In this document: piece by piece, positions 24,638-43,960 of the stretch
Position numbering within the stretch: the first letter of the stretch is position 1
Layout: every line of letters begins with the position of its first letter
NCBI GenBank assembly: GCA_009911065.1
Contig: QXWR01000006.1
Coordinates: 1 to 64,000, forward strand
Direction: 5' to 3'
DNA length: 64,000 nt
DNA from: Clostridiaceae bacterium
GTDB lineage: Bacteria > Bacillota > Clostridia > Lachnospirales > Lachnospiraceae
Made by a program: the position numbers and the translations under genes
The notes under the pieces: model-generated
The model's database searches: none
What the model was told of the DNA's origin: nothing
Seen by the model: only the letters and a program-made list of their open reading frames with translations

Positions 24638-25003
24638 ATGAAAAAATACAACATACCACACCAAAGCCAGGTAATCAAAACACGCTTGACCGAGGAAGAA
24701 TACGCCGAGTTTTCCGAGCGTGTCACCCTCTGCAAAATGAGCCAAGCCGAGTTTATCCGGCAAGCCCTAATCAAATCAAGCATACGCCCGGTTATCACTA
24801 TGTCATTCTGGACAGAACAGGACGTGTTGGAATACACCTACCATAACCATATCCCAATAGCAGATGTATATGGGGAAGTGGTGGCAGATTACGGGAAAGG
24901 GAAAGCACAGGGCGATTCAACGGATATGGGGATTTTTGATGTTGGAAAGCCTATCTTTAATACTACCGGATGTAACAGGACGGGGAGAAAACGTTGCAAT
25001 TAA
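24638..25003 (+). pseudogene. Chimera of a MobC-like N terminus and a PAPS-reductase-like fragment
   Basis: A 121-residue frame with a strong AAAGGAGG site. Residues 1-55 (SQVIKTRLTEEEYAEFSERV, MSQAEFIRQALIKSSIRPVI) are the ribbon-helix-helix start of MobC-type relaxosome proteins. From about residue 57 the sequence becomes FWTEQDVLEYTYHNHIPIAD, VYGEV and TTGCNRTG. These belong to the C-terminal part of PAPS-reductase-like sulfurtransferase proteins found on Clostridia phages and transposons. Two unrelated genes have been fused in frame at about 24805. Neither half is complete. Confidence 0.6.
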
Positions 25004-25056
25004 TACAAAATCAATGAAATTCCAACTATGTCCGGGCTGGCTTTCAAAAAATTTGA

Positions 25057-25085
25057 TTGATTTAGCAAGGACGTCAGAGTATAAT
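25057..25085 (+). promoter_or_regulatory. Promoter of the PD-(D/E)XK gene
   Basis: TTGATT (25057-25062), 17-bp spacer, TATAAT (25080-25085), 72 bases before the start codon. A second TTGATT begins four bases earlier. Confidence 0.65.
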
Positions 25086-25157
25086 AAAGGTGAGGTCATA
25101 TACCTTTTGGGAATGGCTTTTGCGTTTCCTATCATAATAAAAGGAGGTTTATGGCTG

Positions 25158-26120
25158 ATGGATATGGAAATAAAAAATGCGGTCAGTGCAACAGATCAGG
25201 ATGCCCAATATGATGATAAGGCAAAACGTCTGTTGGGAAATAAGATCATTCTGGCGCATATTTTGGTAAAGACGGTCGATGAGTTCCGGGGAATGAACCC
25301 GAAAGATGTGGTATCCTATATTGAGGGGGAACCTTTCATCAGTGTAGTTCCGGTAGAGCCGGGGTTGACTAATGTTGAAAAAATATCGTCTGGCAACGGT
25401 TTGAAAGACGGACAGCGGATTGTCGGGCTGAATACAGAAAATGCGGAGATTAACGAAGGGCTTATACGCTTTGATATTATTTTTTATGTACGCATGAAAG
25501 ATGGTATTTCACAGGTGATTGTAAATGTGGAAGCGCAGAAAGATGAGCCGACAAGTTATCACATCTTAAACAGGGCAGTTTTTTATGTGAGCCGCCTTGT
25601 TTCCTCACAGAAGAAACGAGATTTTGTGGGGACAAACTATAATGACATCAGGCGTGTATTTTCGATATGGGTATGTATGGGCATGGGCGAAAACAGCATG
25701 GCTTATGTGCATCTTGCGAAAGATGATCTGTTAGGCTCTTATCCGTGGAAAGGCAGGCTTGATCTGTTGAATATTGTCCTGATAGGCATATCAAATGAAC
25801 TTCCGGAGCATGATGAGAAGTATGAGCTGCATCGTCTGCTAAGTACGTTGCTTTCAATGGAGCTGACCGTTGATGAAAAATTAGGGATCATTGAAAAAGA
25901 GTATAGTATTGTGGTAGATAATAGAATAAGAGAGGACGTGAGCGCCATGTGTAACTTGTCACAGGGAATTAGGGAAAAAGGCAGGGCAGAGGGAGAAGAA
26001 AAATTTATCTTGAATATGCACAGGAAAGGCTATACGTTAGAGCAGATAGCGGAATGTGTAGAAAAAACTATTGAGGAAGTAGAGGCTGTCATTAAAAAGC
26101 GGGAGCCTGTGCTGGCATAA
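25158..26120 (+). CDS. PD-(D/E)XK nuclease family protein (Rpn/PF12784 type)
   Basis: A 320-residue protein. The likely nuclease core is RFDIIFYVRMKDG followed by VIVNVEAQKDEP (Asp, then Glu-x-Gln). It is followed by the long helical region and by YELHRLLSTLLSMELTVDEK typical of this transposase-like family. The tail NMHRKGYTLEQIAECVEKT and EVEAVIKKREPVL is the repeated targeting helix of Rpn-type proteins. Its start at 25158 follows AAAGGAGGT. The last 68 residues are repeated as a remnant at 41447. Such genes promote recombination or are selfish passengers; the cellular role is unclear. Confidence 0.82.
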   Translation: MDMEIKNAVSATDQDAQYDDKAKRLLGNKIILAHILVKTVDEFRGMNPKDVVSYIEGEPFISVVPVEPGLTNVEKISSGNGLKDGQRIVGLNTENAEINEGLIRFDIIFYVRMKDGISQVIVNVEAQKDEPTSYHILNRAVFYVSRLVSSQKKRDFVGTNYNDIRRVFSIWVCMGMGENSMAYVHLAKDDLLGSYPWKGRLDLLNIVLIGISNELPEHDEKYELHRLLSTLLSMELTVDEKLGIIEKEYSIVVDNRIREDVSAMCNLSQGIREKGRAEGEEKFILNMHRKGYTLEQIAECVEKTIEEVEAVIKKREPVLA

Positions 26121-28857: not shown

Positions 28858-29748
28858 TCATGGTTCGCTTGTTAATATCTGACTTTTTAATTGTTGGAGG
28901 AAAGCACTGGAGGCTCTCGAAAGAACCTGATATTTTTTCCAAACAATACAAAGTTCTGCTTCTAGTGTAGGGAAAAGTGGTCTGAAACATAGATTGCTAT
29001 CCCCTGTTGTGTTAATCAACCTGTCTAATGCAATTACATATCCAAAACCTTTTCTGACAAATTGGGCAGCGTTATAAATCAAGTCATAGGTTGCCACGAT
29101 GTTGAGCCTGGAAATATCAGCCTTTAACCAGCGGAACATTTCTGTATTGATTGAGGTTTGATGGGATACAATAAGGGGCTTATCCCACAAATCCTCTGCG
29201 CAGATTGTTTCCTTTTCTGCTAAGGGGCTGTCCTTTTGCATCAACACTCCCCATAAATCTTTTTGAGGAAGTTTGAGGTAATCATATTTGCTGATGTCTG
29301 CTTCTCCAACCAGCAATCCGAAGTCGATTAAGCCCTTATCCAGTTTTTCCATAACACGCTCCGCATCACCGCTGTAAATATGGTAATGAATGAGAGGGTG
29401 CTTGATCTGCAAATCCTGTGCTGCCTGTGCCAAAAAGGAAATACTTTCGGTTTCTCCGCAGCCAATATAAATATCACCGCCTATGTTCTCGTTGGAAGAT
29501 GTCAATTCTGCCTTTGTCTTTTCCATTAAATCAACTAACTCCTCCGCACGTTTACGAAGCAGCATTCCGTCCTCTGTCAGTGTAACTTTTTTACTTCCAC
29601 GAATAAGTAGCTGTTTGCCTAATTCTTCTTCTAAATCTTTTAATTGTCTGGAAAGCGGCGGCTGTGTCATGCGCAGGGCTTCCGCTGCCTTTGTTATGCT
29701 TTCTTCCCTTGCAACCGCAAGGAAATACTGTAATACCCGAATGTCCAA
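28858..29748 (-). CDS. LysR-family regulator of the redox cluster
   Basis: A 296-residue regulator. The N-terminal helix-turn-helix (LQYFLAVAREESITKAAEAL, RMTQPPLSRQLKDLEEELGK) is standard, followed by a type 2 periplasmic-binding-like effector domain. I chose the TTG at 29748, preceded by GGGAGG, because residues after it (LDIRVLQYF) match the normal LysR start; the frame is open to 29859 without a ribosome site. It is divergent from the dehydratase-like operon, and a shared 17-bp box occurs at 29829 and 35833. Confidence 0.9.
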   Translation of the reverse strand: MDIRVLQYFLAVAREESITKAAEALRMTQPPLSRQLKDLEEELGKQLLIRGSKKVTLTEDGMLLRKRAEELVDLMEKTKAELTSSNENIGGDIYIGCGETESISFLAQAAQDLQIKHPLIHYHIYSGDAERVMEKLDKGLIDFGLLVGEADISKYDYLKLPQKDLWGVLMQKDSPLAEKETICAEDLWDKPLIVSHQTSINTEMFRWLKADISRLNIVATYDLIYNAAQFVRKGFGYVIALDRLINTTGDSNLCFRPLFPTLEAELCIVWKKYQVLSRASSAFLQQLKSQILTSEP

Positions 29749-29828
29749 GCGTAAAACCTCCCTGATAATATCGTTGTCACAACAATAACAGAAAATCAGA
29801 TACTTTTCAAGTATGGAATACCATTCTA

Positions 29829-29845
29829 TATATGTATTTGATATT
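29829..29845. promoter_or_regulatory. Candidate LysR box, copy 1
   Basis: TATATGTATTTGATATT, an imperfect AT-rich dyad (ATAT-N7-ATAT) 43 bases before the first gene of the operon and 81 bases from the LysR start. The identical 17 bases recur at 35833. Confidence 0.6.
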
Positions 29846-29887
29846 AAAGATAAAAACACTTATGATAATAACCGGAGGTGGATTGGA

Positions 29888-31132
29888 ATGTCTGAAAGGA
29901 AAAATAAGGTAAATCTAAGTGCATATAAAAAGGAAATGAAGGACGTATTGGAAAGGCTTGTGAAAACAATGCCTGCATATAAGGAACTGCGGTTTTTTGT
30001 GAAATGCGTTATCAATCACTATCTGACAGATTTTGAAAAAAATAATTCCCATATTGTTGTGATTGGTTCCAATATTCCAGAGGAATTAGTCCTTGTATCG
30101 GGTAAGATGCCCTACTGGATTTTGGGTGGAAGCAGGGTAAGTTCCATGTGGGCGGATGACATTGTGCCGAGGGATACTGATCCGGTCAGCAGGTCAGGGC
30201 TAGGATCGATTGTTTCCGGCTTTGCGGAGAATGCTTTGATTTTGATACCTTTAGTGAATGACAGCACAAGAAAACTGGCTTATATCCTGAAATCAAAGGG
30301 ATTAAAGGTACATACTTTTCATTTTCCGCCAGTGAAAGACGCTCAGACAGTTTTGGAATGGAGGCGGCAATATGAAGCGTGCAGGGAAGCAGTAGCTCTG
30401 CATCTGAAAAGACCATTGACAAAACGAGCCCTGCAAAAATCGCAGGAACAGATTTCTGCGGCAAAAAAGCAGATTCAGGATTTTATGGAAGTATCAAAGG
30501 ATACACTGAACGGAACAAGCAGAATGTTTATTTTAGGCAGCTATTATTGTGCGGATAATCTTTCGGAATGGAGCTTTCAGTTAGAATGTCTGACGGCAAG
30601 GCTGCGAAAGGAGCATAAATGCCGGAACACGGAAAAGAGTAAAGTCCTGTTGCTTGGCTCTCCAATATATTTTCCTAACTACAAGGTTCCGTTTTTGATT
30701 GAGGAAGTGGGGCTTGAGCTGCTTTTGCAGGCGGATTATACGACGCTTTCCATGCTGGCGGAAAGCATTTTTCAGACACGTTCTGGGCTGGAACGGATGA
30801 AAAAAGAGCATATGGCAGATATTTTTTATCGGAATGATGCTTCTCCAGCTTATGTAAAAAATAGTTCTCTGTATGAGCGCATTGAAAAGCTGCTTACCCA
30901 AAAAGAGATAGACGGCGTTGTTTATCATGTCCTGAAAGGGCAGATCGAGTATGACTTTGAATTAGAGCGTTTTGAGGCACTATTTGAAAAGATGAATATT
31001 CCGGTGTTTCGGTTGGAAACGGATTACAACTATCAGGATATAGAACAGCTTCGTATTCGGTTGGAGGCATTTTCAGAGATTTTGAACCAGCGCAGATACA
31101 GAAGATTTGGAAAGGAAACGGTGGCGGTATGA
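29888..31132 (+). CDS. 2-hydroxyacyl-CoA dehydratase/double-cubane-type subunit lacking cluster cysteines
   Basis: A 414-residue protein homologous along its length to the product of 32962-34236 and to HgdB/BadD/double-cubane cluster proteins: VLLLGSPIYFPNYKVPFLIE, GVVYHVLKGQIEYDFELERF, RLETDYNYQDIEQLRIRLEA. At every position where the paralogue has a presumed cluster cysteine this protein has another residue: RLCSG becomes WILGG, RDACP becomes RDTDP, TCDC becomes NDST, DETCM becomes DYTTL, RGC becomes KGQ. It should not hold the Fe-S cluster and may be a structural or substrate-shaping partner. ATG 29888 follows GGAGG. Note the overlapping ATGA with the next gene. Confidence 0.8.
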   Translation: MSERKNKVNLSAYKKEMKDVLERLVKTMPAYKELRFFVKCVINHYLTDFEKNNSHIVVIGSNIPEELVLVSGKMPYWILGGSRVSSMWADDIVPRDTDPVSRSGLGSIVSGFAENALILIPLVNDSTRKLAYILKSKGLKVHTFHFPPVKDAQTVLEWRRQYEACREAVALHLKRPLTKRALQKSQEQISAAKKQIQDFMEVSKDTLNGTSRMFILGSYYCADNLSEWSFQLECLTARLRKEHKCRNTEKSKVLLLGSPIYFPNYKVPFLIEEVGLELLLQADYTTLSMLAESIFQTRSGLERMKKEHMADIFYRNDASPAYVKNSSLYERIEKLLTQKEIDGVVYHVLKGQIEYDFELERFEALFEKMNIPVFRLETDYNYQDIEQLRIRLEAFSEILNQRRYRRFGKETVAV

Positions 31133-32958
31133 AAGGGAGGAAGATAGGAACAGCGATTGTGTGTGCTGTCTGTGTGTTCCTGATTGTGTCGGCTTTTTTT
31201 GCAAAGGATTTTGTCTTGTATGATTATCATATGAATGTTTCGGACTACCATTATGCAAAAACAGAAGAAGAAAAACCATTATCAGCAGACACTTCCGTAT
31301 GGTTTTCCTATGGAGATGCAGGAAAAGCCGTTTATTACGGGGTAAGTGATGAAATACGGGAAGAAAACATGACAGTCTATGCACTGGCGCAGACTGGAGA
31401 AATGTCGGCAACGAATGGAAATGAAAACCCAATCAGGCAGGATTCATTGGGACATTTTATTGCGGCGCTGCCCATGACAGAGGCTGACATCGACGGGGAT
31501 GGGGAGGCAGAGAAAGTCTATGATTATGCACGGGCAGATTTGGGATTGAACGCCTTTAATCCCGCACCGCAGAGATTTCTCGCAGAGGAAATTCCCTTTG
31601 AGCTGGTGTTTGCAGAACGCAAGTATATCATGGTTTATTACGGAAATGAGATTTTGAAGGATGCGGAGATTTTTGTAACCTCTTATAACGGGGAACGAAA
31701 AAAGTACCAGACAGATGAACACGGGTGGATTCAGGGACTTCCAAACAGGGATATACGGGAAGGCTTTACTGCCGTCTATTCTCCTGATGGAGAAGTTGTG
31801 TACCGTATGCACTATGCGCTGGAGGATTATCCGTATTTCTCTGTACATTTTTGGAAAGCGCATTTGCCGTTAGTGGTCATTTTTGCTTTGGCAGGTATTG
31901 GTATTGCAGCCGTTTATCGGATACGGAACCGCATGGAAAAACATAATCCGGCTTACGAGGTTTATTCCAGAGAGCGTGTAGGGATATATCCAGGTACATT
32001 ACATCAGAAAACAACTTCCAAATTTTTATTTATCCGGTGGCTGTGCCTGTTTGCGGGTATGTTTTTGTGGACATATGCCGGAAAGCTGATTCATCAGGGG
32101 CAGACGCTGAATGAGATTTCCATACCTGTATTTAGTTGTCCGTTTAACTTGGATCAGGTGGCGGAAGTACCATGTTATTATTTATCGCATCTTCCGGCGT
32201 TGTTTGGAAGATTTGGCGCAGACTTTCCTGAGCGCAATATAGCCTATGGAGTCTTGTTTATCGTGACAACACTTTTCTGTTTTATTTTTCTTGGGCGTAT
32301 CCTTTGCGGATTCCTCTGTCCGGCTGGTCTTTTGCAGGACTTAATGGATAAACTGCGTCAGGCGCTGCATATCCGTCCGATTGTTGTTACGGATCGGCTC
32401 AACCGCTTTTTACAGCCGATTAAATGGGTGTGGATACTGCTGTTTTTGGGGTTTGCCTTTGCGGGAGGGGATTTTTGTGACATCTGCCCGCTGAAAGGAT
32501 TTACAACCGCACAGGGCGGCTATTGGACAAATTTATATCTTGGCGGATTTTTTGCAGTGGTGATTATGGTAGGCAGCTTTTTCATCAAACGCTTTTGGTG
32601 CATTATTTGTCCGATGGGGTATCTGATGGGGCTGCTTAAAAGATTTAATTTGTTCAAGCTAAAAAAAGACTGCATTTCCTGCACGGAATGCGGAGCCTGC
32701 TATCATGCCTGCCCGATGCGGATTAAAAGCATTTACACGAAAAGGGATAAGGAAACACCCTCCGGGTATCCCTTTATGCACAAAAGAAAGTGCGGGAATA
32801 CGGTAAATGTGCAGACAGTTGACTGTATGATGTGCGGCGAGTGTATCCATAAATGTCCGGAGGACAATGCGTTATCCATGACATTTTGCGGAAAGACAAT
32901 TTACAAATCTTCCCGGAAAACTTTTATGTCAAAATTTTCTGAAAAAAAGGAGGGGTAA
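31129..32958 (+). CDS. NapH-like membrane ferredoxin with extracytoplasmic domain
   Basis: A 609-residue protein. One N-terminal helix is followed by about 210 residues outside the membrane (residues 28-240, including an EF-like DIDGDGEAEKV stretch). A NapH/MauN-like core of about five helices follows, with LCGFLCPAGLLQD and FWCIICPMGYLMG. The end has two ferredoxin motifs, CISCTECGACYHACP and CMMCGECIHKCP. NapH-type proteins pass electrons between the quinone pool and Fe-S or flavin partners. Its place between two dehydratase-like genes suggests it supplies or takes their electrons. The outside domain is unusual; it might bind a substrate or a partner. Confidence 0.85.
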   Translation: MKGRKIGTAIVCAVCVFLIVSAFFAKDFVLYDYHMNVSDYHYAKTEEEKPLSADTSVWFSYGDAGKAVYYGVSDEIREENMTVYALAQTGEMSATNGNENPIRQDSLGHFIAALPMTEADIDGDGEAEKVYDYARADLGLNAFNPAPQRFLAEEIPFELVFAERKYIMVYYGNEILKDAEIFVTSYNGERKKYQTDEHGWIQGLPNRDIREGFTAVYSPDGEVVYRMHYALEDYPYFSVHFWKAHLPLVVIFALAGIGIAAVYRIRNRMEKHNPAYEVYSRERVGIYPGTLHQKTTSKFLFIRWLCLFAGMFLWTYAGKLIHQGQTLNEISIPVFSCPFNLDQVAEVPCYYLSHLPALFGRFGADFPERNIAYGVLFIVTTLFCFIFLGRILCGFLCPAGLLQDLMDKLRQALHIRPIVVTDRLNRFLQPIKWVWILLFLGFAFAGGDFCDICPLKGFTTAQGGYWTNLYLGGFFAVVIMVGSFFIKRFWCIICPMGYLMGLLKRFNLFKLKKDCISCTECGACYHACPMRIKSIYTKRDKETPSGYPFMHKRKCGNTVNVQTVDCMMCGECIHKCPEDNALSMTFCGKTIYKSSRKTFMSKFSEKKEG

Positions 32959-32961
32959 GTT

Positions 32962-34236
32962 ATGGCAGATCAGAATGGGATAAACGAACGGCAGCGGGAA
33001 TTATTTATAAGAAAATCCACAAGGGTAGCGGCATCTTACCTGAAACGTGCGAAGGAACTGTCTGAATTGCCGGATGCCGCAAAGCCTTTCTTTGATGTAT
33101 TGGAAAATACATACGTTAAATTAGCAGACATACAAAAAACGGAAGATAGGAAAAGTATTGGAACTTTATGTGTCATGGTTCCGGCAGAGCTTGTTTATGC
33201 GGCAGGAGCTATGCCTGTACGCCTGTGTTCCGGCAGTTATACGGCGTATTCTATCGGGGATGATTATATTCCCCGTGATGCCTGCCCTTTGGTAAAGGCG
33301 GTTATGGGATTCGGTAAGATAAAAGCGCTGCCTGCATTTGATAACTGTTCCCTGCTGGTTGCGCCTGTGACCTGTGACTGTAAAAAGAAACTTGCCGGTA
33401 CGATTGACTCCGTGAAAGATACCATACCGCTTCATATTCCACCGCTGAAAAAGGACGATGCCGACACAGAGATTTTTCTGAAAGAGTTGTACCGCCTGAT
33501 ACCGCTGCTGGAAAATGTAACGGGAAAACAGGTCACGGCAAAGTCTTTGGCAGAAGGGATTAACATGGTTGGAAACGCACAGTATGAGATGTCGGAGTTT
33601 CTGAAATACCGCAGACATGACCTGTCGCTGATGAGTGGAACACAGGTAATGGCAGTGATGAATGCCTATTCTTATATGCCAGTCAATCTATGGGCAGAGC
33701 AGATGCACAGGCTGAATGAAGAATTGAAGCTACGGCTTTCGCAGGGGCGTTTTGTAAGCAGGAAAAACCAGCCCCGTATTCTCGTGACAGGTTCGCCTAT
33801 TGCTTTTCCAAACATTAAGGTTCCGCTTCTGATTGAGGAAATGGGAGGGGTTCTTGCGGCAGATGAAACCTGCATGGGGGAGCGTGGATTGTATGATCCG
33901 GTATCGGTCATTGATGCCAGTTTTGACGGGATGATGCGTTCTCTTGCCTCAAGATATACAAAGCCCTGTACCTGTCCGGTGTTTGTGGATAACAGCCAGC
34001 GTATTTACCGGATTAAGCAGATGATAAAAGAACATAAAATTCAGGGAGTCATTTACCATGTGCTGCGTGGCTGCCTGGTGTATGACTATGAATATCAGCT
34101 TATGGAGGAGGCAATGGGGAAGATGGATATTCCCATTATCCGTGTGGAGAGTGATTACAATGAGGAAGATGTGGAGCAGCTCCGTATCCGCATCGAGGCA
34201 TTTATTGAACTGATTAAGATGCACACGTCCGCATAA
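32962..34236 (+). CDS. 2-hydroxyacyl-CoA dehydratase/double-cubane-type Fe-S subunit
   Basis: A 424-residue protein with the fold and conserved regions of HgdB/BadD/FldC and double-cubane cluster proteins. Candidate ligands are VRLCSGSY, RDACPLVKA, FDNCSLLVAPVTCDCKKKL, ADETCMGE, KPCTCPVF and HVLRGCLVYDYE. It starts after GGAGG, three bases past the ferredoxin stop. With the ATPase encoded next it should form an ATP-driven low-potential reductase or dehydratase. No CoA-transferase or acyl-CoA gene is nearby, so a classical 2-hydroxyacyl-CoA substrate is doubtful and a double-cubane-type small-molecule reductase is an equal possibility. Confidence 0.85.
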   Translation: MADQNGINERQRELFIRKSTRVAASYLKRAKELSELPDAAKPFFDVLENTYVKLADIQKTEDRKSIGTLCVMVPAELVYAAGAMPVRLCSGSYTAYSIGDDYIPRDACPLVKAVMGFGKIKALPAFDNCSLLVAPVTCDCKKKLAGTIDSVKDTIPLHIPPLKKDDADTEIFLKELYRLIPLLENVTGKQVTAKSLAEGINMVGNAQYEMSEFLKYRRHDLSLMSGTQVMAVMNAYSYMPVNLWAEQMHRLNEELKLRLSQGRFVSRKNQPRILVTGSPIAFPNIKVPLLIEEMGGVLAADETCMGERGLYDPVSVIDASFDGMMRSLASRYTKPCTCPVFVDNSQRIYRIKQMIKEHKIQGVIYHVLRGCLVYDYEYQLMEEAMGKMDIPIIRVESDYNEEDVEQLRIRIEAFIELIKMHTSA

Positions 34237-34334
34237 GGAAAATAGCTGCATTTGCAGCTTGCGGACGGCACAGGCAGAAACGATAAATCGTTTCTGATCG
34301 ATAGAAAAAAACTGCAAAAGGAGGCGTGACGGCT

Positions 34335-35126
34335 ATGGAAAAATATTATCTTGGGTTGGACGGCGGCTCTACTTATCTGAAAGCCGCCCTTATGAAAGAT
34401 AAAAAAGTAGTCGGAACTGTGGTATATCCTACGGGAATTGACAATAACGGGATGGCGAAGAAAATTGTGGCAGCCTTGTGTAAAAAATATGGTATCAGCC
34501 GGACGGATATAGGCTATATCATGGCTACCGGTTACAGCCGCAAAATTCTTGAGGTTGCCGATGATGATATTTCAGAGATTACGGCTCATGCCTATGGAGT
34601 GCGGGTTACTGCGCCAAAAGGATACCGCCCCGGCATGGTCATTGATATTGGCGGACAGGACAGCAAAATTATCTATCTTGACGCAAATTACAATGTAAAG
34701 AATTTTACCATGAATGACAAATGTGCTGCAGGAACAGGAAAGTTCATGGAGGTTATAGCGCAAATCCTGGAAACGACAATCGATCAGGTCGGAGCGCTTT
34801 CTTTGGAAAGCACTTCGCCGTGTGACATCAACAGTACCTGTGTGGTATTTGCACAATCGGAAGTGATTTCACTTGTGGCAAGAAAAGTTGACAGGCGTGA
34901 TATTCTCGCTGGTATGCACTTGTCGATGGCAAAGCGGATTATCAAAATGATGAAAAAGTCGGAAAAAGGCGGCGATATTCTGATGACGGGCGGCGGCGCG
35001 TTGAATACGGGCATACACAGGGCTTTTGAGGAAGAAATGCTGAAAGATGTATATGTGGCAAAATATCCGCAGTTTAACGGTGCGGTCGGCGCAGCTTTGA
35101 TTGCCAGTGAGAGAGGTGGGATATGA
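34335..35126 (+). CDS. BadF/BadG/HgdC-type ATPase activator
   Basis: A 263-residue ASKHA-fold ATPase: GLDGGSTYLKA and DIGGQDSKIIYLD form the nucleotide-binding loops. NDKCAAGTGKF and STCVVFAQSEV carry the two cysteines that, in the homodimer, bind a bridging [4Fe-4S] cluster. These activators use ATP to push one electron into the partner dehydratase or double-cubane protein. It is co-transcribed after the cysteine-bearing subunit. I take ATG 34335, well spaced from AAGGAGG; a GTG at 34326 is too close to it. Confidence 0.9.
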   Translation: MEKYYLGLDGGSTYLKAALMKDKKVVGTVVYPTGIDNNGMAKKIVAALCKKYGISRTDIGYIMATGYSRKILEVADDDISEITAHAYGVRVTAPKGYRPGMVIDIGGQDSKIIYLDANYNVKNFTMNDKCAAGTGKFMEVIAQILETTIDQVGALSLESTSPCDINSTCVVFAQSEVISLVARKVDRRDILAGMHLSMAKRIIKMMKKSEKGGDILMTGGGALNTGIHRAFEEEMLKDVYVAKYPQFNGAVGAALIASERGGI

Positions 35127-35797
35127 ATCGTTCTTTGCTTATTCCGGCGATTACAACCGCTGTTTCCGTCGGACTTGGGTGCGGAACTTGTTGCAGCCCG
35201 ATTATCAGTACGTTTCTTTCTACTTATGTGGTATCCCATTCAGGCGGTGTGAAAAAAGGGGTTTTGTCATTCGTAAGTTTCTTTTTCGGTAAGATGGTCA
35301 GTGTTTCGCTGTTGTGCATGATTTCTGCGTTCGTTAGCAGACGATTTATCAGTGACAGCGGTTACATTGGTTCTTTTAATCTGCGGCTGTTCTCACAGGC
35401 GGCTATGAGTTTGATAGGATTTGTTTTGGCAGGTCGTTGGTTTTTAGAACTGAAAAACCAGAAAAAGTGCAATGGCTGTAAGGAATGTGGGAAAATGGCT
35501 GGAAAGTCAGGTTTTGTGCCAATGCTTGCGGCAGGATTGACTTATGGCATGACGCCCTGCGCCCCTCTTTTGCTGATGATTGGCTATTGTTTTACACTTC
35601 CTGTTTCTTTGGCTGGAATAACTGGCGTTGCCTTTAGCCTTTCCAGTATGGTAAGTCCTGTTTTGCTGTTGGTGGTGGTAACAGGTGCGCTTTCAAAGAA
35701 AATGGGAAAGGAAATACCGGATGCGGTAAAATGGTTCCGTTTGGCTTCTTATATGGTGCTGGTGGTTATGCCATTTTTTCTTTCATCAAGGTATTAA
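35123..35797 (+). CDS. Cysteine-rich DsbD/TauE-like membrane protein
   Basis: A 224-residue protein with six predicted helices in two related halves. Conserved cysteines are in GLGCGTCCSP at the start, CNGCKECGKM in a central loop and YGMTPCAPLLLM at the start of the second half. This is the layout of the CcdA/DsbD_2 (sulfite exporter-like) group, which moves electrons across the membrane through cysteine pairs or handles sulfur or metal. It overlaps the ATPase gene as ATGA. In this operon a thiol/electron relay to the outside domain of the NapH-like protein is a reasonable idea. Confidence 0.75.
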   Translation: MNRSLLIPAITTAVSVGLGCGTCCSPIISTFLSTYVVSHSGGVKKGVLSFVSFFFGKMVSVSLLCMISAFVSRRFISDSGYIGSFNLRLFSQAAMSLIGFVLAGRWFLELKNQKKCNGCKECGKMAGKSGFVPMLAAGLTYGMTPCAPLLLMIGYCFTLPVSLAGITGVAFSLSSMVSPVLLLVVVTGALSKKMGKEIPDAVKWFRLASYMVLVVMPFFLSSRY

Positions 35798-39925: not shown

Positions 39926-40513
39926 ATGAAAGTTTTAGCGATTAACGGCAGTGCAAGAAAAGACGGAAATACAGCAATCCTTATCCATACAGTGTTTGAG
40001 GAATTGCATCAGGCAGGAATTGAAACGGAAATGGTGCAGCTTTCCGGGAAAATCATTGAACCCTGCAAGGCTTGTTGGGCTTGTGGTGGGAGAAAAAGTT
40101 GTGTGCATAAAAAGGACTTGTTTCAGGAAATTTTTGAGAAGATGACGCAGGCAGACGGGATTATTCTCGGATCGCCAGTTTATACGGCAAACATTTCTGC
40201 GAATATGCAGGCATTTTTAGAACGGGCATCCGTAGTAACCGATATGAACCGGAGTGAAAATCTGTTTCGGCACAAAGTCGGTGCGGCTGTCACGGCGGCA
40301 CGCAGAGGAGGCGCACTTACTACACTTGATGCAATGTACCATTTCTTTATGTTGCAAAATATGTTTGTAGTTGGTTCTTCTTATTGGGCGTTTGGCTATG
40401 GGCAGATGCCGGGGGATGTCCAGAAAGATGAAGAAGGTCTTGACACAATGAAAAATCTTGGTCAGAATATGGCATATTTGTTGAAGGCACTGGAAGAAAG
40501 GCGGAATGGGTAA
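39926..40513 (+). CDS. Flavodoxin-fold NAD(P)H oxidoreductase, copy 1
   Basis: A 195-residue NADPH-dependent FMN-reductase-like protein: KVLAINGSARKDGNTAILIH binds FMN phosphate, CKACWACGGRKSCVHKKD is a cysteine-rich insertion, and GIILGSPVYTANISANMQAF and SYWAFGYGQMPGDV follow. A near-identical gene lies at 43373. It follows GGAGG. It is probably a cytoplasmic flavoenzyme feeding the cluster, though the partner is unknown. Confidence 0.9.
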   Translation: MKVLAINGSARKDGNTAILIHTVFEELHQAGIETEMVQLSGKIIEPCKACWACGGRKSCVHKKDLFQEIFEKMTQADGIILGSPVYTANISANMQAFLERASVVTDMNRSENLFRHKVGAAVTAARRGGALTTLDAMYHFFMLQNMFVVGSSYWAFGYGQMPGDVQKDEEGLDTMKNLGQNMAYLLKALEERRNG

Positions 40514-42262: not shown

Positions 42263-42361
42263 TGAAGTGCAGCAAAAGCAGGATATATCTTATCTTGTGT
42301 CACAGATTTTAGAAATCGAAGTGTTAAAGTGCAGGACGATACAAAACAGATAGAGGAAGTC

Positions 42362-43201
42362 ATGGCAAAGCGTACCGCAAAAAACAGCGTATTCCTTGAC
42401 CTTTTTCAAAACAAGCGTTATCTGCTAAAACTGTATAAAACGCTCCATCCAGAGGATACCACAGCGACAGAGGATTCTCTTACAGATGTGACGATTACAA
42501 ATGTATTGACGGATAATCTGTATAATGATTTAGGTTTTATTGCTAATAATAAGCTGATGATACTTGTTGAGGCACAGTCTACATGGACAGTGAATATTTT
42601 AGTAAGAGTTTTGTTGTATCTGGCGCAAAGCTATCACGAATATTTCCAGCGTACCTGCCAAGACTATTACAAAGGCAAGAAAGTAAAAATGCCAAAGCCT
42701 GAACTTTATGTGATTTTTACGGGAAACAAAGGGCAAAAACCCGATAAAATATCTTTGTCTAAAGAGTTTTTTGAGGGTGCAGATATAGATATTGAGGTAA
42801 AAGCAAAGGTTATCTATGAAAGCGATACAGATGACATTATCAATCAGTACATTATTTTCTGTAAAGTTTTTAATGAGCAGACAAAAAGGCATGGCATGAC
42901 ACAAAAGGCAGTTACGGAAACGATTTGCATATGCAAGGACAGGAATGTCTTAAAGGAATATTTGCTTGAAAGGAAAAAGGAGGTTGTGACGATTATGATG
43001 AGTTTGTTTGATGATGAACAGATAATGAAGTCGTTTATAAGAAGTGAACGGTATGAAGCGGCACAGGATAAGGTAAAAGAAAAGGCAATTCTTATGTTGC
43101 AAAAAGGAAAAATTTCTATAGATGAAATACAGATGTTTTTCCCAGAATTATCTGATGATGAGATTGAGGAAGTTAAAAAGGAGGTTATGCAGTTGGCATA
43201 A
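42362..43201 (+). CDS. PD-(D/E)XK nuclease family transposase-like protein
   Basis: A 279-residue protein. MAKRTAKNSVFLDLFQNKRY is the typical start, and the core has NDLGFIANNKLMILVEAQST (Asp...Glu-x-Gln). YNQYIIF-type helices follow, and the tail KEKAILMLQKGKISIDEIQM and ELSDDEIEEVKKEVMQLA matches the family. ATG 42362 follows AGAGGAAG; a GTG at 42329 would add 11 residues. It is a different subfamily from the gene at 25158. Such proteins are thought to act in recombination or as selfish nucleases. Confidence 0.85.
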   Translation: MAKRTAKNSVFLDLFQNKRYLLKLYKTLHPEDTTATEDSLTDVTITNVLTDNLYNDLGFIANNKLMILVEAQSTWTVNILVRVLLYLAQSYHEYFQRTCQDYYKGKKVKMPKPELYVIFTGNKGQKPDKISLSKEFFEGADIDIEVKAKVIYESDTDDIINQYIIFCKVFNEQTKRHGMTQKAVTETICICKDRNVLKEYLLERKKEVVTIMMSLFDDEQIMKSFIRSERYEAAQDKVKEKAILMLQKGKISIDEIQMFFPELSDDEIEEVKKEVMQLA

Positions 43202-43372: not shown

Positions 43373-43960
43373 ATGAAAGTATTGGCAATAAACGGTAGCG
43401 CAAGAAAAGATGGGAACACAGCAATCCTTATCAATACAGTATTTGAGGAATTGCATCAGACAGGAATTGAAACGGAAATGGTGCAGCTTTCCGGGAAAAT
43501 CATTGAATCCTGCAAGGCTTGTTGGGCTTGCGGCGGGAGGAAAAATTGTGTGCATAAAAAGGATATGTTTCAGGAAATCTTTGAAAAGATGACGCAGGCT
43601 GACGGGATAATCCTCGGTTCTCTGGTTTATACGGCAAATATTTCTGCGAATATGCAGGCATTTTTAGAGCGGGCATCGGTAGTGACAGATATGAACCGGA
43701 GTGAAAATCTGCTCCAGCACAAAGTCGGGGCGGCTGTTACAGCGGCACGCAGGGGCGGCGCACTTACCACACTTGATGTAATGTACCATTTCTTTATGCT
43801 GCAAAATATGTTTGTTGTTGGATCTTCTTATTGGGCGTTTGGCTATGGGCAGATGCCGGGGGATGTTCAGAAAGACGAAGAAGGGCTTGATACAATGAAA
43901 AATCTTGGTCGAAATATGGCATATTTATTGAAGGCACTGGAAGAAAGGCGGAATGGGTAA
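43373..43960 (+). CDS. Flavodoxin-fold NAD(P)H oxidoreductase, copy 2
   Basis: A 195-residue protein differing from the copy at 39926 at only about a dozen positions (for example Thr for Ala in HQTGIE, Ser for Pro in IIESCKACWACGG, Leu for Pro in GSLVYTANIS). The Pro-to-Leu change next to the flavin-binding GSPVYT loop may matter. The two copies flank a 2.9-kb segment of mobile-element remnants. It follows GGAGAT weakly spaced. No partner gene follows. Confidence 0.88.
   Translation: MKVLAINGSARKDGNTAILINTVFEELHQTGIETEMVQLSGKIIESCKACWACGGRKNCVHKKDMFQEIFEKMTQADGIILGSLVYTANISANMQAFLERASVVTDMNRSENLLQHKVGAAVTAARRGGALTTLDVMYHFFMLQNMFVVGSSYWAFGYGQMPGDVQKDEEGLDTMKNLGRNMAYLLKALEERRNG

Follow-up and report, generated by a model that had tools for sequence, protein, structure and literature searches.

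A double-cubane-type protein is encoded with a homologue lacking its ligand cysteines in a recurrent five-gene cassette

The window analysed here is a stretch of 64,000 nt from a Clostridiaceae bacterium (contig QXWR01000006.1). It carries a cassette of five genes, A, N, B, C and D, in which two homologous proteins of the HGD-D fold, A and B, differ at the positions expected to hold an Fe-S cluster. The six probable ligand cysteines of a double cubane are present in B, and none of them is a cysteine in A. We regard A as cluster-free with high confidence, and A is kept by selection despite the cysteine loss. The system would work like a double-cubane protein (DCCP). The account that we favour on balance is a reductase formed by A and B and driven by ATP, which would receive its electrons from the membrane; B would carry the only double cubane, and A would be the cluster-free half.

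29888..31132, forward strand: A, 414 aa, subunit of the HGD-D fold with none of the six ligand cysteines of a double cubane
30179..30181, forward strand: Asp98 of A, in place of probable ligand Cys108 of B
30941..30943, forward strand: Gln352 of A, in place of probable ligand Cys371 of B
31129..32958, forward strand: N, 609 aa, NapH-like membrane polyferredoxin with two CxxCxxCxxxCP motifs on the C-terminal side
32962..34236, forward strand: B, 424 aa, double-cubane-type HGD-D subunit
33169, 33283, 33373, 33871, 33973 and 34072, forward strand: codons of the probable ligand cysteines of B
34335..35126, forward strand: C, ATP-dependent activase of the HgdC/BadF family, both presumed cluster cysteines present
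35123..35797, forward strand: D, polytopic membrane protein carrying conserved cysteines, probably related to thiol carriers of the DsbD/CcdA type

Both subunit genes lie where the original prediction had placed them. A starts at ATG 29888, preceded by GGAGGT. The genes overlap or nearly abut at A/N, N/B and C/D, with the start of N overlapping the stop of A, and the ATG of the activase (34335) sits within an ORF opened by GTG 34326. The window genome encodes no HGD-D protein besides A and B.

Homology of A and B and the ligand positions

A and B share 118 of 372 aligned residues (32%, BLASTP E 2e-53) over residues 46-399 of A, which leaves the first 45 residues of A outside the alignment. The homology that had been proposed is thus borne out, and all the motif pairs quoted for it are found in the two proteins. 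The reported lack of cluster cysteines in A also holds, with Gly60, Asp98, Asn124, Thr286, Ser319 and Gln352 at the six ligand places. The ligand set of B is probably Cys70, Cys108, Cys138, Cys304, Cys338 and Cys371. This assignment rests on the alignment with DCCP and BzdN and on the double cubane of BzdN, which is stated to be bound through six cysteines (PMC11971306). Cys89 is conserved in B and DCCP, and BzdN lacks a cysteine there, so Cys89 is probably not a ligand; BzdN has a cysteine at the position of Cys70. The earlier cysteine list therefore needs correction: its motifs are real, but Cys89 (RLCSG) probably does not belong among the ligands and two positions it did not list count. The proximal ligands of B should be Cys108, Cys138 and Cys371, because their spacing is similar to that of Cys95, Cys128 and Cys380, the three cysteines that hold the catalytic [4Fe-4S] cluster of BzdO (PMC11971306). 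By alignment, BzdN, HadC and MbdN all retain these three proximal cysteines. We consider it likely that B holds a double cubane.

Next to the ligands, B has further conserved cysteines. Of the 76 cassette B proteins, 70 have Cys140 and 75 have Cys336, and both are absent from those places in 13 DCCP comparison rows. Five B proteins have Gly or Ala at position 140, all of them from cassettes with A', as part of the A-type proteins is labelled here. Cys129 is another extra conserved cysteine beside the ligands.

Conservation of the emptied site

For the A-type set, 143 relatives were confirmed by a scan of named genomes with an alignment of A, and 80 were kept. In exact alignment columns, 71 of 91 A-type proteins have no ligand cysteine and 20 have one, at position 138 in 14 and at position 304 in six; none has two or more. 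Asp takes the place of Cys108 in 91 of 91 and in 11 of 11 further A-type proteins. Gln takes the place of Cys371 in 91 of 91, a count that is partly biased because one of the two search patterns contains that Gln (Asp98 is in neither), and in 10 of the 11 further ones, with Glu in L171. Among 76 cassette B proteins, 73 keep all six cysteines; the remaining three show gaps and no substitute residues at the missing places. All six are also kept in 13 of 13 DCCP rows, which include one PDB fragment and one protein of L166 that the tree places with the outgroup. A comparison of 84 rows of A with 72 rows of B gives 18 positions that are fixed for different residues in the two, and nine of these coincide with a ligand column or lie no more than two residues away from one. 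A and B have in common a C-terminal E-T-D / E-Q / E-A-F-x-E motif.

This pattern of replacement bears on whether the old cluster site of A binds another cofactor. Asp98, Gln352, Ser319 and Asp317 might hold a mononuclear metal, or the site might take a cluster bound by residues other than cysteine. In favour of such a cofactor, Asp98 never varies and Gln352 hardly does among A and A' proteins that diverge elsewhere, and single cysteines are kept at 138 and 304. However, Asp, Gln, Ser, Asn, Thr and Gly make a poor set of Fe-S ligands, and the invariant Asp98/Gln352 pair may only fill and stabilise a cavity. We consider this explanation improbable.

Family placement, descent and selection

Both proteins exceed the gathering cut-off of PF06050 (HGD-D, 28.4 bits), with 146.5 bits for A and 302.1 bits for B. 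For the double-cubane model NF040772 (cut-off 350), B scores 327.9, B of L107 321.8 and A 122.8, all under the cut-off. Judged by the six cysteines of a DCCP, B belongs and A itself is not a DCCP. The predicted models of A and B both find DCCP as nearest solved structure, which supports placing the pair on the DCCP side of the superfamily rather than with the dehydratases. Of the dehydratase/double-cubane label given earlier, the double-cubane part thus stands and the dehydratase part does not. Scores of B against the class I benzoyl-CoA reductase models (score/cut-off) are 70.6/453.8 for TIGR03190, 56.1/421.15 for TIGR02263 and 19.6/448.6 for TIGR03191. The HadB/HadC models give 55.8 for A and 110.7 for B with NF052456 (cut-off 700), and 19.8 for B with NF052455 (cut-off 750). 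With these NCBIfam subunit models under cut-off, a dehydratase or benzoyl-CoA reductase proper is rejected.

A tree of 67 rows unites A and A' in a single clade (100/99). This clade falls together with B in a larger group (100/100), from which the DCCP clade (98/95) is separate; B may or may not be one clade. The simplest history suggested by these sequences is that a DCCP-like gene was duplicated once and that the cluster was lost once, long ago, in A. Relic cysteines of A-type proteins are found at or next to 304 in A', and at 138 in Acetobacterium and others.

Loss of every ligand cysteine and a faster rate of evolution than that of B could be read as signs that A is a functionless, decaying copy of B. 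The median dN/dS against 14 relatives (Nei-Gojobori) is 0.15 for A; the corresponding medians of the other genes are 0.08 (B), 0.07 (N), 0.03 (C) and 0.14 (D). The reading frame of A is intact, 24 residues are invariant among 51 divergent A and A' proteins, and the partnership is strict across Clostridia and Coriobacteriaceae. Decay is refuted in substance by these observations.

Distribution of the cassette and gene partnership

Relatives of A occur in Lachnospiraceae, Oscillospiraceae, Ruminococcus, Acetobacterium, Eubacteriaceae, Coriobacteriaceae and others; the carriers of the cassette are gut bacteria and related anaerobes. The occurrence of the cassette across other genomes rules out an artefact of one genome. 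The usual order is A-N-B-C-D. Where the sequence extends 5.2 kb or more beyond A on its downstream side (53 loci), N is found in 53, B in 52, C in 52 and D in 51. L092 is without D, and no D was detected in L157, L158 or L170. L073 has A and a truncated N, and no B, C or D was found in the 9 kb downstream.

The partnership was also approached from B, a choice of query that avoids picking A proteins by their own sequence. Searches covered 391 genomes of the class, 200 of the window's own family, 67 of the order of G725 and 117 of the order of G819, and found cassette-type B in 23 genomes. The contig ends before A in two of them (G076 and G1322). In all 21 remaining genomes, A or A' stands in the cassette beside N and retains at most one ligand cysteine; first subunits that keep their cysteines in other genomes, the observation named beforehand as decisive against the prediction, were not encountered among them. 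In a draw of 398 genomes from the phylum, only the window's own genome matches B at 1e-80. The class search also found canonical DCCP-like proteins in twelve further genomes, of which 11 were examined (G720 was left out). A, N and D are missing from the stretch in all of these 11 loci, and an activase-like gene is present in 10 of them.

Partner proteins N, C and D

C is a full acyl-CoA dehydratase activase, with 236.9 bits against the TIGR00241 cut-off of 125.4 and a match to PF01869, which confirms the activator predicted at 34335. Its 266-aa ORF contains Cys133 and Cys172, which we take to be the cluster cysteines of the activase. The original prediction is borne out in part: the homologous pair with and without cluster cysteines and the activase beside it are real, the heterodimer and a substrate pocket shaped by A are proposals, and the NapH-like and DsbD-like members of the cassette were overlooked. 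N is NapH-like only, since its match to TIGR02163 (NapH; E 1.3e-20, 74.0 bits) is under the cut-off of 213.05; Fer4_5 and Fer4_7 are above their cut-offs. The N of the window has a 51-bp in-frame insertion between the ferredoxin motifs (within 32690-32890) that is absent in six close relatives. D appears related to DsbD through its homologues in L118 (41.8 bits) and L081 (44.3 bits), which match PF13386 (DsbD_2, cut-off 24.9). The D proteins of the window and of L122 have no PF13386 match, and that of the window has no Pfam match at all. Cys20, Cys24, Cys65, Cys119 and Cys146 of D are invariant in 12 sequences. From the family likeness of N and D we infer that N would be the dedicated electron source of C and that D may carry thiol electrons through the membrane.

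Neighbouring genes and other features of the window

A LysR-type regulator is encoded divergently from A:

28858..29859, reverse strand: LysR-type regulator, PF03466 and PF00126, true start uncertain

Its orthologue adjoins A in many Lachnospiraceae-type loci. Other recurrent neighbours are an aldo-keto reductase, an exported flavodoxin, a hydrolase, an acetyltransferase, a two-component system and a small exported cysteine-rich protein. Each is limited to part of the loci, and the attempt to read a substrate from neighbouring genes led nowhere. In 30 of 80 loci, but not in the window, the cassette has near it a gene for a small protein whose N-terminus includes a hydrophobic stretch and whose C-terminus carries a CxxCxxxC...PxC motif. 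The motif is visible in 29 of the 30 (for example L081:15030-15539), L105 being cut by the contig end. This protein is a possible extracytoplasmic partner of N or D.

Elsewhere in the window, 39926-40513 and 43373-43960 are near-copies of an FMN-reductase-like gene (185 of 195 aa and 535 of 588 nt identical) that flank an ORF at 42329-43201. Upstream of the cassette, an ORF at 24864-26120 weakly matches PD-(D/E)XK transposase-type nucleases (PF12784, E 0.0005, below cut-off).

Comparison with known systems

Canonical DCCPs act as homodimers with a double cubane in each half (PMC11971306). B resembles DCCP/DCCP-R of Carboxydothermus (6eno, 7yyl, 7yzm) in its fold, its six probable ligand cysteines and an activase of the same family. 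The cassette differs in adding the cluster-free homologue A, the NapH-like N and the DsbD-like D. BzdNO/MbdON is a heterodimer of homologues in which BzdN carries a double cubane; unlike A, BzdO keeps a [4Fe-4S] cluster on three cysteines (PMC11971306). BzdO matches A far more weakly than BzdN or DCCP do. HadBC, whose catalytic HadB cluster is described in the same source (PMC11971306), is likewise heterodimeric and similar in fold and activase, but HadC retains three proximal cysteines by alignment whereas A does not. The literature searched, in which subscription papers and preprints are mostly outside coverage, holds no account of a cluster-free HGD-D subunit or of the five-gene cassette; PMC10134865 concerns a different Acetobacterium operon.

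Proposed mechanism

We propose that A and B are two halves of a low-potential reductase driven by ATP, which would belong to the superfamily of DCCP, class I benzoyl-CoA reductase and 2-hydroxyacyl-CoA dehydratase. Formation of an A-B heterodimer is rather likely in our judgement. B would bind a double-cubane [8Fe-9S] cluster via six cysteines. A would have arisen by duplication of a DCCP-like ancestor, retaining the fold and losing the cluster, with Asp98, Gln352, Ser319, Asp317 and Ser126 occupying the former places of cluster ligands and their neighbours. C would hydrolyse ATP to drive electrons one way into the single cluster of B, and N, probably with D, would replace soluble ferredoxin as an electron donor dedicated to C. 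In A, the site left empty by the cluster may form a polar half of the reaction chamber or a docking face for N, and a small substrate would be reduced at the cluster of B. We lean slightly towards a chamber rather than an adaptor as the role of A.

Several points weigh against this account. B could be a homodimer like DCCP, and it scores just below the curated double-cubane cut-off. Several branches of the tree are long and flagged unsure. Gene order is not fixed: A is last in L036 and L037, and A and N are divergent from B, C and D in L122 and L123. No substrate-specific gene accompanies the cassette everywhere in the 80 loci. With two columns of slack, 61 of the 91 A-type proteins have no cysteine at a ligand column and 18 have one, while 12 have cysteines within two columns of two ligand columns. 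Because of these 12, and of the one cysteine kept in Acetobacterium and others, some A-type proteins may bind metal.

A rather unlikely alternative is that B does the chemistry alone as a DCCP-like homodimer, and that A is a separate adaptor or regulator, for example one that docks B and the activase onto N. The homodimeric state of canonical DCCPs favours it, as does the occurrence of A only where N occurs (21 of 21 testable cassettes and 0 of 11 DCCP loci). Such an adaptor could dispense with the DCCP fold, yet A keeps the whole of it, including the C-terminal motif shared with B, and the related benzoyl-CoA reductase and HAD enzymes are heterodimers of such homologues (PMC11971306). A could also help to assemble the double cubane of B, as a scaffold or chaperone with a role like that of NifEN beside NifDK. 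As expected of a scaffold, A is a paralogue of an enzyme subunit and always encoded with it, and no other cassette-specific maturation gene was seen in the 80 loci. But scaffolds that are known carry the cluster under construction, whereas A retains one ligand at most, and DCCP and BzdN manage without A. We hold a scaffold to be quite unlikely, and retain the heterodimeric A-B reductase as the preferred reading.

Implications for the superfamily

The superfamily has been ordered by loss of sub-clusters, from two double cubanes (DCCP) through one double cubane and a [4Fe-4S] cluster (benzoyl-CoA reductase) to even fewer clusters in the dehydratases; what DCCPs do in the cell is stated to be unknown (PMC11971306). 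A cluster-free subunit that is under selection and linked to an electron source in the membrane would lengthen this published series. More tentatively, and less probably than not, the cassette may represent a new branch of the superfamily: an ATP-driven half-DCCP, supplied from the membrane, with one site emptied. The cavity of that site, marked by the Asp98/Gln352 pair, would accept a non-CoA substrate for direct reduction at the double cubane of the other subunit. If true, this would be the missing end point of a series in which sub-cluster loss makes new enzymes. The culturable carriers, Acetobacterium and Ruminococcus albus, offer a physiological setting for probing the job of a double-cubane protein. 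Taken as a whole, the cassette may encode an enzyme whose ancestry is known but whose lopsided design is new.
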